Source: Lacibacter luteus (GTDB lineage: Bacteria > Bacteroidota > Bacteroidia > Chitinophagales > Chitinophagaceae). Taken from it: 64,000 nt of DNA. This document shows positions 3,872-7,886 of the stretch, piece after piece. Where the stretch lies: contig NZ_SDHW01000002.1 in assembly GCF_004118265.1 (NCBI RefSeq), positions 248,001 through 312,000 of the forward strand, in the 5' to 3' direction. The position numbers were made by a program, and so were the translations under genes. The notes under the pieces are model-generated. The model had not been told where the DNA came from. It saw only the letters and a list, made by a program, of their open reading frames with translations, and searched no databases. Each line of letters starts with the position of its first letter. The first letter of the stretch is position 1.

Positions 3872-3973
3872 ACAGGTTAAAAAATTCAAATCTAAAATCC
3901 ACGACCGATCAAAGCAAATATATTACTATAAAAGTCGGGCTGTTAAATTCTGTAATCACAAATCTATCGGGGT

Positions 3974-3981
3974 TATCTTTG
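3974..3981 (+). promoter_or_regulatory. -7 promoter element TAnnTTTG, 3 bases before the ATG
   Basis: TATCTTTG matches the Bacteroidota -7 consensus TAnnTTTG exactly. It ends 3 bases before the ATG at 3985, so transcription should begin at or beside the start codon. No clear -33 TTG is seen at the usual distance. Confidence 0.6.
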
Positions 3982-3984
3982 CGC

Positions 3985-4764
3985 ATGCTTAAACAAACAC
4001 TGATCAATGCTACAAAAGCGGGTGCAGAACAGCTTACCCATTTTTTTCATCGTGATTATGCCGTACACAACAAAGAAGGTGTAAACAATCTTGTAACCGA
4101 AGCCGATCATGCAGCGGAGAAAGCCATCTTCGAAGTAATTAAACAGGATTTCCCCGATCATTATATCCTCAGCGAAGAATCGGGCGAATTGCCGCAGGAT
4201 TCCAATTACAAATGGATCATCGACCCGATCGATGGCACAGTAAACTTCGCCAACGGTATTCCTATCTGTTGCGTAAGTATTGCTGTTGAAAAAGATGGCA
4301 AGATGGTGCTTGGTGCCGTGTACAACCCGTTTATGAACGAATTCTTTTTTGCAGAACGTGGAGAGGGTGCCTACCTCAACGATAAACGCATTTATGTTAG
4401 TGAACAGAGCGAACTGATAAAAGCCTGCATGGTTACTGGTTTTCCTTATACCTATTTGGATATGCCCAATGGACCATTACAGGTGTTTGAACGTTTTATC
4501 CGCAAAGGTGTTCCTGTTCGTCGCTTGGGTAGTGCAGCTATTGATCTTTGCTGGGTAGCCGCCGGACGCTTTGATGGATTTTACGAACACAAGCTCAATG
4601 CATGGGATAGTGCTGCAGGTTTTCTGCTTGTAGAAGAAGCCGGCGGTAAAGTAACCGACTTTGAAGGCAATCATTACTCACCTTACCAACCGCATCTTGT
4701 TGCTACCAACGGTAAAATACACGATGAGCTGGTGGAAGTGATCAATGACAGGAAGAAACTCTGA
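3985..4764 (+). CDS. Inositol monophosphatase family protein
   Basis: 259 residues from the ATG at 3985; the frame can be opened at TTG 3979 but the -7 element overlaps that codon. Metal-site motifs of the family are present: SEESGE near residue 64, IIDPIDGTVNFANG near 79-91, and WDSAAGFLLVEEAGG near the C-terminus. Members are Mg2+-dependent, Li+-sensitive phosphatases acting on inositol-1-phosphate, PAP/3'-phosphoadenylates or other small phosphates; the sequence does not separate these. Cytosolic. It runs divergently from the glycosyltransferase gene. Its TGA stop is only 5 bases before the left arm of the S23 cassette. Confidence 0.9.
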   Translation: MLKQTLINATKAGAEQLTHFFHRDYAVHNKEGVNNLVTEADHAAEKAIFEVIKQDFPDHYILSEESGELPQDSNYKWIIDPIDGTVNFANGIPICCVSIAVEKDGKMVLGAVYNPFMNEFFFAERGEGAYLNDKRIYVSEQSELIKACMVTGFPYTYLDMPNGPLQVFERFIRKGVPVRRLGSAAIDLCWVAAGRFDGFYEHKLNAWDSAAGFLLVEEAGGKVTDFEGNHYSPYQPHLVATNGKIHDELVEVINDRKKL

Positions 4765-4769
4765 GAAAG

Positions 4770-4804
4770 TACGAGGTACGAAGTTAGAAGTACGCAAGTG
4801 TAAC
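4770..4804 (+). repeat. Left arm of a 35-bp inverted repeat flanking the S23-type gene
   Basis: This 35-base segment is the reverse complement of 5285-5319 at 29 of 35 positions, counted by hand. It contains GTACGAAG and GAAGTACGCA units. Several mismatches would be G-U pairs in RNA, so the transcript could fold into one long stem with the gene in the loop. Confidence 0.85.
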
Positions 4805-4877
4805 GTGCTGCTTTTGGGGTAAACTTGAAGTTCTTGTTTTTTAAGTTGTTGATTATACATAACCTTAACTATAATCT

Positions 4878-5234
4878 ATGCAAGACATGAAACAACGTAC
4901 ATTTCAATTTTCCGTTGAGGTTGGAATGTTGATTTCCGCCTTACCTTTTAGCATGGTAAACAAAGCGTATGGAATGCAGCTGGTCAGGAGTTCGTCATCG
5001 GTTGGTGCAAATTACAGAGCGGCCAGAAGAGCAAAGTCGGATGCAGATTTTTTAAACAAGTTGAAGATCTGTGAAGAAGAAGCGGATGAAAGCATTTACT
5101 TTCTTGAGTTGCTCAAAGTATTCAATGCAGCTGTTGCAGAAAACATCGACAGGTTGATAAAAGAAGCAAACGAATTATTAAAAATTCTTGTAACGTCTAT
5201 TATTACTACAAGAGAAAAATTAAATAAACAGTAA
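4878..5234 (+). CDS. Four-helix-bundle protein, S23 / 23S rRNA intervening-sequence protein family
   Basis: 118 residues from ATG 4878, or 115 from the ATG at 4887. The family pattern is clear: VRSSSSVGANYRAARRAKSD in the middle, then DFLNKLKICEEEADESIYFL and an amphipathic C-terminal helix with ELLKILVTSI. The family includes proteins encoded inside intervening sequences of 23S rRNA genes and the Avd protein of diversity-generating retroelements. Most free-standing members have no known function. Here the gene sits between two unrelated housekeeping genes and is enclosed by a 35-bp inverted repeat, so gene and repeats look like one inserted unit. No reverse transcriptase or rRNA gene is nearby. 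Confidence 0.85.
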   Translation: MQDMKQRTFQFSVEVGMLISALPFSMVNKAYGMQLVRSSSSVGANYRAARRAKSDADFLNKLKICEEEADESIYFLELLKVFNAAVAENIDRLIKEANELLKILVTSIITTREKLNKQ

Positions 5235-5284
5235 CAAACAAGTTATACGGGTAACGTATCGGGAATGCAACAAATAATTGTACT

Positions 5285-5319
5285 GTTGCACCTGCGTACT
5301 TCGTACTTCGTATTTCGTA
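5285..5319 (+). repeat. Right arm of the inverted repeat flanking the S23-type gene
   Basis: Partner of 4770-4804. It contains the repeated unit TACTTCG / TACTTCG / TATTTCG. It ends 11 bases before the thiL start codon, so the insertion lies immediately upstream of thiL. Confidence 0.85.
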
Positions 5320-5330
5320 AATGGTTTTTT

Positions 5331-6365
5331 ATGAGTGAAGAACGTACAGAAATATCCTCTCTTGGTGAGTTTGGTTTAATTGATCATCTCACGAAAAATA
5401 TTGAGCATCAGAATGCATCAACCATACTTGGTGTGGGTGATGATGCTGCGGTAATTGATCATTTCGGCAAGCAAACGGTTATCACTACCGATTTGTTGAT
5501 TGAAGGTGTGCATTTCGATTTAATGTATACACCGCTGAAACATCTCGGTTATAAAAGTGTGGTGGTGAATGTGAGCGATATCTATGCCATGAACGCTACA
5601 CCAACACAAATTACCTTAAGCCTTGCTGTAAGTAACCGTTTCAGTCTTGAAGCATTGGAAGAGTTTTACGATGGCGTGTATGTAGCTTGCGAAGAATATG
5701 GTGTTGATCTGATCGGTGGCGATACCACTTCCTCCAGTAAAGGATTTGTGATCAGCGTAACGGCTATTGGCGAAGTAGCACCCGATCAATATGTAAAACG
5801 CAGCACAGCCAAACCAAACGATTTAATTTGTGTAAGCGGTTACCTTGGTGGTGCTTACCTCGGCTTGTTGTTATTGGAAAGAGAGAAGAAAATTTTTCTT
5901 GAAACAAAAGGTGTGCAACCCGATCTTGAAAACAGGGATTACATTGTAGGCCGTTTATTAAAACCTGAAGCCCGCAGAGATATTATTGAATTTTTTGAAA
6001 AAGAAAAGATCGTTCCAACTGCAATGATGGACATCAGCGATGGCCTCAGCAGCGAAGTGCTCCACATATGCAAACAAAGTGAAGTTGGTGCAGTGCTGTA
6101 CGAAGACAAAATTCCTGTACATCCCGATGCAAAAGATTTTGCTTACAAGCTGGAAATAGATCCTACTGCCTGCGCATTAAGTGGTGGTGAAGATTACGAA
6201 CTCGTGTTTACACTTTCGCAAAGCGATTACGATAAAATTAAAGATGTAAACGGTATTCGTGTTGTAGGTTATGTAACCGAAGCAGCAGAAGGGGCACATA
6301 TTATTACAAGAGGCGGCAATAAGCACGAGCTTACAGCACAGGGCTGGAACGCCTTCAGCAAATAA
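5331..6365 (+). CDS. thiL: Thiamine-phosphate kinase
   Basis: 344 residues from ATG 5331 (MSEERTEISSLGEFGLIDHL). The open frame extends upstream to 5265, but that extension is translated inverted repeat. ThiL phosphorylates thiamine monophosphate to the active cofactor thiamine diphosphate with ATP. Typical motifs: LGVGDDAAVI near the start for ATP/Mg binding, TTDLLIEGVHFD, YKSVVVNVSDIYAMNA, DLIGGDTTSS, MMDISDGLSS and a C-terminal SGGEDYELVF. Length is normal for the family. It is cytosolic. The native promoter region has been displaced or replaced by the S23 cassette. Confidence 0.95.
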   Translation: MSEERTEISSLGEFGLIDHLTKNIEHQNASTILGVGDDAAVIDHFGKQTVITTDLLIEGVHFDLMYTPLKHLGYKSVVVNVSDIYAMNATPTQITLSLAVSNRFSLEALEEFYDGVYVACEEYGVDLIGGDTTSSSKGFVISVTAIGEVAPDQYVKRSTAKPNDLICVSGYLGGAYLGLLLLEREKKIFLETKGVQPDLENRDYIVGRLLKPEARRDIIEFFEKEKIVPTAMMDISDGLSSEVLHICKQSEVGAVLYEDKIPVHPDAKDFAYKLEIDPTACALSGGEDYELVFTLSQSDYDKIKDVNGIRVVGYVTEAAEGAHIITRGGNKHELTAQGWNAFSK

Positions 6366-6371
6366 TAATAC

Positions 6372-7886
6372 ATGAAAAACATCGGCTTTATTGGTTGGGC
6401 ATTGTTGAGCTATGCACTTACTTCCTGTTCGGCAACAGGAAGTATTGGCTATAGTCCTGAACGTAAATTCAGTGCAGATAAACTGAAAGAAGATGTGCAG
6501 ATGATGGAGCAAACACTCAAACAAAATCACCCTTCTTTATATTGGTATACATCAAAAGAAGAAGTAGAGGCATCGTTTCAACGGGCTTATGCAAGACTAA
6601 CCGATTCGCTGAACGAAGTACAGTTTCGTGCAGTTATTGCCGAAACAATTTTCCCCATCCGATGTGGGCACACCAGTGTACGTTTTTCCCGTAGCTATTA
6701 CCGCTATACCGATGGGTTGCGTTTGAAAACTTTTCCGCTTATTGCAAAAGTGATCGACGATTCTTCCCTGGTTGTTACAACCAACATCAACCGCAGAGAT
6801 TCATTTATACGTACCGGAACTTCATTACGCAGCATCAACGGAATGAATGCGAGAAGTATTATTGATACGTTGCTACCGCTTGTTTCTATTGATGGCAATG
6901 CGAAAAATTTCAGCTACCAGAACCTCAGCAACAACTTCAGTACCTATTACAATATGCGGTTTGGCTTAAAAGACAAGTATAATATTGTTTTTTTAAACGA
7001 TAAGGGAGTTGAGCAGCAGCGAACCATCGATGTATATGATCCGACAAAAGACAGTATTCGTCGCAGACCTGTAAATTTTACAACAGCTCCGCCACCGCCA
7101 CAACAACAGCCGGCACGTGAACAGGAGTTGAGCGACAGGCAACGCAGACTGCAACGCACCCGTAGTTTTAGTATCGATTCTACTGGCACCTATGCAACAC
7201 TCCGCATCAGCAGTTTCAGTACAGCACTCAGCAAACATTTTTTAAAATCAAGTTTTCGTACGCTAAAGAAAAAGAACATCAAACACCTTGTAATTGATGT
7301 GCGCAACAATGGCGGTGGTTTAATTAAATCATCGTTGTATTTAACAAGGCTGGTTTGCAACGAACCCTTTTCGTTTACCGATTCCATTTATTCGGTTACA
7401 CATAAGGTTCATTCCGAAGCAAAAATCAGCCGTCGGTTTATTTTTAACCTGGGTTTGTTTTTTCTTAACCGTAAGAAAAACGACAGCATGTATGATTTCC
7501 GTTTCTTCCACCACAAACAATATCAACCGCTGCCGCAACATTTTTCGGGCAAAGTATATATTGTAACAGGAGGCTATTCTTTTTCTGCCACTACACTTTT
7601 TGCAGCCGTTGTAAAAGGAAAAGAAAATGTAACCATTGTTGGCGAAGAAACCGGTGGCGGTTATTATGGCAACAATGGCGTGTTTATTCCCGAAATGGTT
7701 TTACCCAATAGTAAACTTCGTGTACGGTTACCCCTATACCGTATTGTAAACAACAAAAACTATCCGAAAGACGGGCACGGTGTATTACCCGATATTGAAA
7801 TAAAAGCCAGCGCCGAAAGCATACGGCAAAATCGTGATCCTAAAATGGAAAAAGTAATCAGTCTTATTATGCAACGGAAAGGATAG
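6372..7886 (+). CDS. S41-family peptidase, predicted lipoprotein
   Basis: 504 residues starting 6 bases after thiL. The N-terminus is a lipoprotein signal (LLSYALTSC, Cys near residue 19), so the protein is probably anchored in the periplasm or outer membrane. The C-terminal half is an S41 (tail-specific protease / C-terminal processing) domain. VIDVRNNGGG is the usual strand before the active site, and GGYSFSATTLFAA carries the probable nucleophile Ser405, followed by GEETGGG. A Pro/Gln-rich linker lies around residues 237-250. The short gap suggests co-transcription with thiL. The substrate is unknown. Confidence 0.88.
   Translation: MKNIGFIGWALLSYALTSCSATGSIGYSPERKFSADKLKEDVQMMEQTLKQNHPSLYWYTSKEEVEASFQRAYARLTDSLNEVQFRAVIAETIFPIRCGHTSVRFSRSYYRYTDGLRLKTFPLIAKVIDDSSLVVTTNINRRDSFIRTGTSLRSINGMNARSIIDTLLPLVSIDGNAKNFSYQNLSNNFSTYYNMRFGLKDKYNIVFLNDKGVEQQRTIDVYDPTKDSIRRRPVNFTTAPPPPQQQPAREQELSDRQRRLQRTRSFSIDSTGTYATLRISSFSTALSKHFLKSSFRTLKKKNIKHLVIDVRNNGGGLIKSSLYLTRLVCNEPFSFTDSIYSVTHKVHSEAKISRRFIFNLGLFFLNRKKNDSMYDFRFFHHKQYQPLPQHFSGKVYIVTGGYSFSATTLFAAVVKGKENVTIVGEETGGGYYGNNGVFIPEMVLPNSKLRVRLPLYRIVNNKNYPKDGHGVLPDIEIKASAESIRQNRDPKMEKVISLIMQRKG

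Follow-up and report, generated by a model that had tools for sequence, protein, structure and literature searches.

The window analysed here is a 64,000-nucleotide (64-kb) stretch of the 5.07-Mb Lacibacter luteus genome (G000). In the gap between an inositol-monophosphatase-family gene (imp) and thiL it holds an S23/IVP gene (PF05635/TIGR02436) enclosed by a 35-nt inverted repeat (Table 1). In profile searches the S23 reading frame passed the curated cut-offs of PF05635 (5.9e-15; 55.8 bits against 33.8) and TIGR02436 (1.3e-21; 76.8 bits against 24), and in the search that gave PF05635 the protein matched that family only at E <= 0.001. It also matches PDB 2rld at 1.7e-14. Five chains are present in each of the crystal structures of the S23 homologues 2gsc and 2rld, and XCC0516 of Xanthomonas campestris is a solved S23 pentamer (PMC4990558, here and below in the accessible parts of its text). 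A preliminary description had placed an S23/IVS-type gene within such a repeat between two housekeeping genes, and the family matches of all three genes bear this out. Its coordinates were reproduced: the two 35-nt arms pair at 29 of 35 positions (83% complementary), the left arm begins 5 bases after the imp stop codon (4762-4764), and 11 bases separate the right arm from the thiL ATG. Upstream, the thiL frame stays open across the right arm, with an ATG at 5265 (window positions 5265-5330), and automatic annotation may therefore place the thiL start within the cassette.

Table 1. Features of the imp-thiL locus, with window positions, strand and remarks.
Upstream host gene (imp), inositol-monophosphatase family	3979..4764	+	PF00459 (Inositol_P) 1.3e-70
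Entire intercistronic gap	4765..5330	+	In congeners: 8-24 nt in three, S23 cassette in eight
Left arm	4770..4804	+	G-rich strand = sense; TACGAGG 4770-4776, TACGAAG 4777-4783, TTAGAAG 4784-4790, then TACGCAAGTGTAAC
S23/IVP four-helix-bundle gene, 118 aa	4878..5234	+	ATG 4878; second in-frame ATG 4887
Right arm, mirrors left	5285..5319	+	TACTTCG 5297-5303, TACTTCG 5304-5310, TATTTCG 5311-5317
Downstream host gene thiL	5331..6365	+	TIGR01379 1.6e-96

Folding of the transcript, a check proposed in the preliminary description, gave -156.8 kcal/mol for 4750-5340 (z -3.60), and none of 100 shuffles was equally good; together with the flank statistics of 89 site clusters given below, this rules out a chance inverted repeat. 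No Rfam match was found in 3900-6500 at E <= 0.1, ruling out a known Rfam element at the locus. Between the arms, only the S23 frame matched any family in the list of reading frames and the profile searches, leaving the unit without a transposase, and reading of the frames neighbouring S23 revealed no reverse transcriptase. The genome's single RVT_1 match (L358, G000:C24:174699-175295) is DRT2-like and lies on another contig than the window, which rules out a partner of the diversity-generating retroelement type for S23.

The arms are built of 7-mer units. The left arm reads TACGAGG TACGAAG TTAGAAG TACGCAAG..., and the right arm, as its reverse complement, TACGAAA TACGAAG TACGAAG TACGCAGG...; a lag-7 scan of the 64-kb window found a single strong array, 5295-5319, which is the right arm. 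These heptamer arrays are the main point of the locus and are absent from the preliminary description, whose observation was right but understated. A profile search of the genome found six intact PF05635 genes; a further one is broken. Inverted repeats flank 6/6 of the intact genes, with arm sequences that differ from locus to locus and that, on reading, consist of heptamers. The broken gene (L006/L008, G000:C25:308603-308913) consists of two overlapping frames with one stop within the match, and has no good flanking inverted-repeat pair.

To define the arms across the family, we collapsed 190 S23 loci from several phyla by shared flanks into 89 site clusters, each represented by its first locus by name; 89 is a low count, since chained flank matches may have joined unrelated sites. 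An inverted-repeat score of at least 18 was reached by 62/89 clusters versus 17/890 mispaired flanks and 1/80 ordinary genes of the genome, and a score of at least 14 by 78/89, 99/890 and 7/80, respectively, with 11/89 clusters scoring under 14. The flanks showed a lag-7 excess (89 clusters; t = 9.0 upstream and 8.1 downstream), their autocorrelation peaking at lag 7 and also at 14 (89 clusters) and 21 (76- and 80-locus sets); in the 76- and 80-locus sets the lag-7 excess was absent a few hundred bp off the S23 genes. Among 76 intact loci from the genome, its congeners and further relatives, the median inverted-repeat score was 19 versus 11 for 912 mispaired flanks and 10 for a direct-orientation control; within a locus, the two arms are built from one heptamer particular to that locus and face each other in inverted orientation. 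When flanks were ranked, the true partner came strictly first for 27/76 loci and among the first three for 47/76; it is often outranked because related loci share heptamers. Comparable medians were obtained for the best 80 of at least 586 confirmed S23 loci in the genome collection (20 versus 11 for 960 mispaired flanks) and for 16 further loci, from outside Bacteroidota or from Nostoc plasmids (22.5 versus 10; four of the 16 score 9-14). Scores of 18-35 were found for S23 loci in 11 of the 22 plasmid records found, and on the Nostoc plasmid pC052_D all eight GGGAACA matches (8/8) are arms of one S23 cassette. One S23 query against phage records gave no match at E 1e-5.

Many loci in these sets are orthologues of one another. 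Left out of the family counts were L006, L006_1, L008 and L008_1 (broken gene), L040_1 (cut duplicate) and L054 (internal stop); L175, whose protein is the same as that of L056, was kept out of the covariation and 89-cluster sets and retained in the 80-locus and 175-locus neighbour sets, and the 16-locus set excludes L307, which is too short, and 13 loci already present in earlier sets. An ungapped arm score of 14 was passed by 162/190 loci, in which the median gap from the S23 stop to the start of the right arm is 7 nt. The median arm holds 4.4 heptamers, and the idea of five heptamers per arm, one per pentamer subunit, was thus not borne out. Across the 89 clusters, cytosine is scarce in left arms (C 9.6%, G 28.1%), and right arms show the mirror-image composition. 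Some arms, including those in Gemmatirosa, have a period of 8 or a mixed period of 8-9 instead of 7 (L173, L308, L212, L226 and L252), and in Pseudanabaena the gene-adjacent arrays are in direct orientation with the inverted partner further out. Ordered matching of variable heptamers between arms was weak (39/49 positive, 10/49 above 95% of permutations).

The imp-thiL site itself could be read in 11 of 13 congeners, G007 (which ends at a contig edge) and G001 (two short matches) being left out. Eight congeners carry cassettes of three arm types and three are empty. TACGAAG arms are found in G002, G012, G003 and G008, with S23 proteins 63-87% identical to that of the window, AGATTT arms in G009, G013 and G011, and TACGATG arms in G006; the empty sites, with gaps of 8-24 nt, are those of G010, G005 and G004. 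In the flank tree the sister pairs G000/G009 (support 1.0), G002/G006 (1.0) and G011/G012 (.999) each carry two arm types. The S23 tree instead groups the three AGATTT proteins (.996) and places G000, G002, G003 and G012 together, with G008 between; the two trees are in conflict. The closest relative, G009, has a thiL protein 97% identical to the window's, an S23 protein only 53% identical and AGATTT arms, and it retains a left TACGAGG TACGAAG TTAGAAG arm outside its AGATTT cassette. This is a cassette replacement that left one arm behind. A further swap was found at L042/L083, with flanks 86/89% identical and S23 42%, while most S23 loci at shared sites are plain orthologues. By eye, no target-site duplication was noticed at the congener imp-thiL sites or at three G009/G000 replacement sites. 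The search for other copies and empty sites that the preliminary description had called for thus found both, in the six intact loci and the three empty sites, and the pattern it had associated with a purely local structure, no other copies and identical arms in all relatives, is not what is seen: copies exist and the arms differ. The closeness of the right arm to the thiL ATG and the good fold of the stretch would fit a local RNA structure regulating thiL, but the three congeners whose imp-thiL site is empty contradict this. As the arms beside thiL change, the same layout recurs across 89 clusters, Rfam gives no match and there is no G-U bias (see below), we regard local thiL regulation as highly improbable.

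Using simple open-frame gene calls for neighbour orientation, we found S23 to be co-directional with both neighbours at 151/175 loci and in 59/75 clusters, versus 39/80 ordinary genes; per neighbour, ordinary genes of the genome are on the same strand in 57/78 and 50/80 cases. Such co-direction with the operon suggests that read-through is important for S23 expression. CRISPR operons on cyanobacterial plasmids contain S23 cassettes, as cas6-S23-cas4 twice and as cas10-S23-cmr3 (L165, L170, L171), and paired S23 genes some 0.5-1.1 kb apart were seen at L048 (G033:C17) and L312/L314 (G064:C447).

The link between protein and arms was evaluated in locus pairs without shared flanks. The mean heptamer distance fell from.44 below 30% S23 identity to.37 at 50-60%,.32 at 60-70% and.16 above 70% (13 pairs). 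The heptamer-protein correlation was reached by 0/300 permutations overall, by 3/300 for pairs under 50% identity and by 67/300 for pairs under 40%: related proteins show the link clearly, and distant pairs no longer do. Each S23 lineage appears to have its own heptamer, with protein and heptamers changing together, and from this covariation we infer that S23 may bind its own heptamers. Heptameric repeats have been attributed in print, as a suggestion, to slippage (PMC4692102, PMC4679880, in their accessible parts), and orthologous arms do show single changes and shifted units relative to one another. Arrays arising by slippage independently of S23, which would then sit where repeats are tolerated, are nevertheless an unlikely explanation: strong inverted repeats flank 62/89 S23 clusters versus 1/80 control genes, the locus-specific heptamer is inverted in both arms with a low direct-orientation control, and the heptamer follows the protein.

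Two tests of RNA-stem conservation gave it no support. On the sense strand, arm mismatches at 73 loci comprised 74 G-U versus 90 A-C (p =.24), and in seven orthologue groups there were 141 one-sided changes, with 26 of the double changes compensated and 27 uncompensated. RNA pairing is not visibly kept, and from these sequence comparisons recognition of each array seems more likely. The preliminary description had suggested a self-contained mobile or RNA-level cassette outside rRNA; the cassette part stands, given six intact arm-flanked copies in the genome, empty and swapped imp-thiL sites, and arms and proteins that change together, but an RNA stem as the thing maintained does not.

Arrays of the same kind occur apart from S23 genes. 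TACTTCG arrays give 42 matches in the genome (at most 2 mismatches in 18) versus 0 for the reversed control, and GTTCATA arrays 51 versus 1; our locus records cover 30/42 and 30/51 of these matches, respectively. Apart from the window, 20 TACTTCG sites were read; most are single arrays, and L011, L013 and L017 are gene-less hairpins. At L013 and L036 an inverted partner lies at 700 and 544 bp with no S23 match between, and these spaced pairs are candidates for other cargo or decayed cassettes. Hand grouping reduced the GTTCATA matches to 19 sites, of which one is the L001 S23 cassette, 9 are gene-less hairpins and 9 are of other kinds; 10/10 pairs are convergent. At least five S23 sites of G009 have no S23 in G000. 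Three were tested, picked before G000 was viewed, and each corresponds to a gene-less hairpin in G000, with gaps of 56-89 nt and flanks 82-89% identical; by eye, two are GTTCATA arrays, the type of the resident S23 cassette L001, and the third has GCAAAG units spaced 8-9 nt, which are not clean heptamers. A fourth site, L068/L143 (flanks 72%), holds a short GATGAGT array by eye, and at the composite gene-less sites L020, L032, L329, L332 and L342 the left and right arms are of different type. A scan of 400 kb of the genome found 13 lag-7 arrays versus 0-3 at other lags. Scans of 200 kb each found none in an S23-free relative and one in G017, which has 14 S23 matches; the number of arrays is no simple function of the number of S23 genes. 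G009 has 38 TACTTCG matches, yet no TACGAAG arms at its S23 loci read. An array locus matching on both flanks was found in G009 for 11/20 TACTTCG sites of G000, and the array was kept in place in 7/7 aligned G000/G009 sites; gene-less arrays are thus mostly stable between species, which counts against ready mobility. Hairpins lie between co-directional frames in 10/11 cases and single arrays in 17/24; single arrays show no co-direction bias, given the ordinary per-neighbour rate, and eleven hairpins are too few to show one.

These observations bear on whether S23 is instead a nucleic-acid-binding regulator, the arms autoregulating its own message, the scattered arrays being its targets, no element moving of its own accord and the swaps reflecting homologous recombination between strains. 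The stability of arrays between G000 and G009, the covariation of protein and heptamer and the co-direction of S23 genes with their neighbours are all consistent with such a role, and translational regulation has been proposed for TAACTGA repeats (PMC4679880, in its accessible part). However, arm types replace each other at imp-thiL with the host genes unchanged, S23-free sites hold hairpins of other types, clean empty sites exist, and single arrays lack the orientation bias of a regulon. We therefore find this explanation doubtful.

Several known systems share parts of this architecture. In the Coxiella 23S rRNA IVS, two to three GACAGAT heptamers, depending on the strain, lie upstream of S23p, and RNase III cuts at the first (PMC4990558). 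As at the imp-thiL locus, an S23-family frame lies in the terminal inverted repeat of a transcribed unit (PMC4990558), but the window S23 is located between protein genes rather than in an rRNA gene. The accessible text of that paper does not describe locus-specific two-sided heptamers as a family rule, gene-less forms or same-site swaps (PMC4990558). The REPIN-RAYT system likewise pairs one gene with its own end repeats, the repeat type being tied to the gene type, and has extragenic gene-less hairpins formed from inverted doublets (PMC3116915, accessible part); here too, gene-less inverted doublets carry the ends of a gene-bearing copy (GTTCATA: 9 hairpins and the L001 cassette). In contrast, S23 matches PF05635 only and not the tyrosine transposase (RAYT), and the repeats there are REP palindromes whereas S23 ends are tandem heptamers (PMC3116915). 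The window unit differs from DNA transposons and insertion sequences in having no transposase and from diversity-generating retroelements in having no reverse transcriptase, although Avd of the latter has a related four-helix pentamer fold (PMC10053308, accessible part). Heptamer repeats themselves are known as GGGAATC of Xanthomonas and GGGGA(C/T)T of Nostoc, with 70 convergent pairs in one genome (PMC4692102). Like S23 arms, these have period 7, prefer about four units and lie between aligned ORFs, with the G-rich strand following the stop codon or lying antisense ahead of the next ORF (PMC4692102). They were described without S23, the terms S23 and four-helix having 0 occurrences in PMC4692102. 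In the accessible parts of these papers, Rehm et al. called the role of the Xanthomonas and Nostoc repeats open and their surroundings stable (PMC4692102), and no transfer mechanism was evident for the TAACTGA repeats (PMC4679880). In the open full-text literature, which does not extend to subscription papers and preprints, we found no paper joining S23 genes generally to heptamer arms.

Taken together, the data favour, at a probability of roughly 0.55, a minimal intercistronic element with gene-bearing and gene-less forms, organised like REPIN-RAYT with S23 replacing the transposase, and of which the rRNA IVS would be one branch. Such an element would carry a single S23 gene framed by two inverted arrays, each with about four heptamers in tandem, and, placed between co-directional operon genes, would be read from the host transcript. 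Gene-less hairpins with such arms would be its second, non-autonomous form, and one element would take the place of another at a given intercistronic site, in some cases leaving one old arm. S23, probably a pentamer like its homologues, may recognise the heptamer arrays as end sequences and may promote exchange or spread of the sequence between them, the part that RAYT is thought to play for REPINs, but without a transposase fold. By analogy with the rRNA IVS, the hairpin may allow the insert to be trimmed from the host transcript. More tentatively, S23 cassettes could be multi-phylum minimal mobile elements in which a pentameric four-helix bundle reads heptamer ends and mobilises gene-less hairpins in trans, with the rRNA IVS as one branch; they would then be the source of the cyanobacterial, xanthomonad and Bacteroidetes heptanucleotide repeats, a possibility against which we would still weigh the odds.

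S23/IVP proteins have solved structures and no known function, the IVS is unexplained and the origin of heptamer repeats is open. The arms provide a concrete candidate ligand for S23, with a sequence that is predictable for each locus, and a single binding experiment would make S23 function, the IVS and the origin of heptamer repeats testable together. The S23 cassettes would represent an overlooked kind of exchangeable element, and may also help to explain puzzling seven-letter repeats in bacterial genomes.
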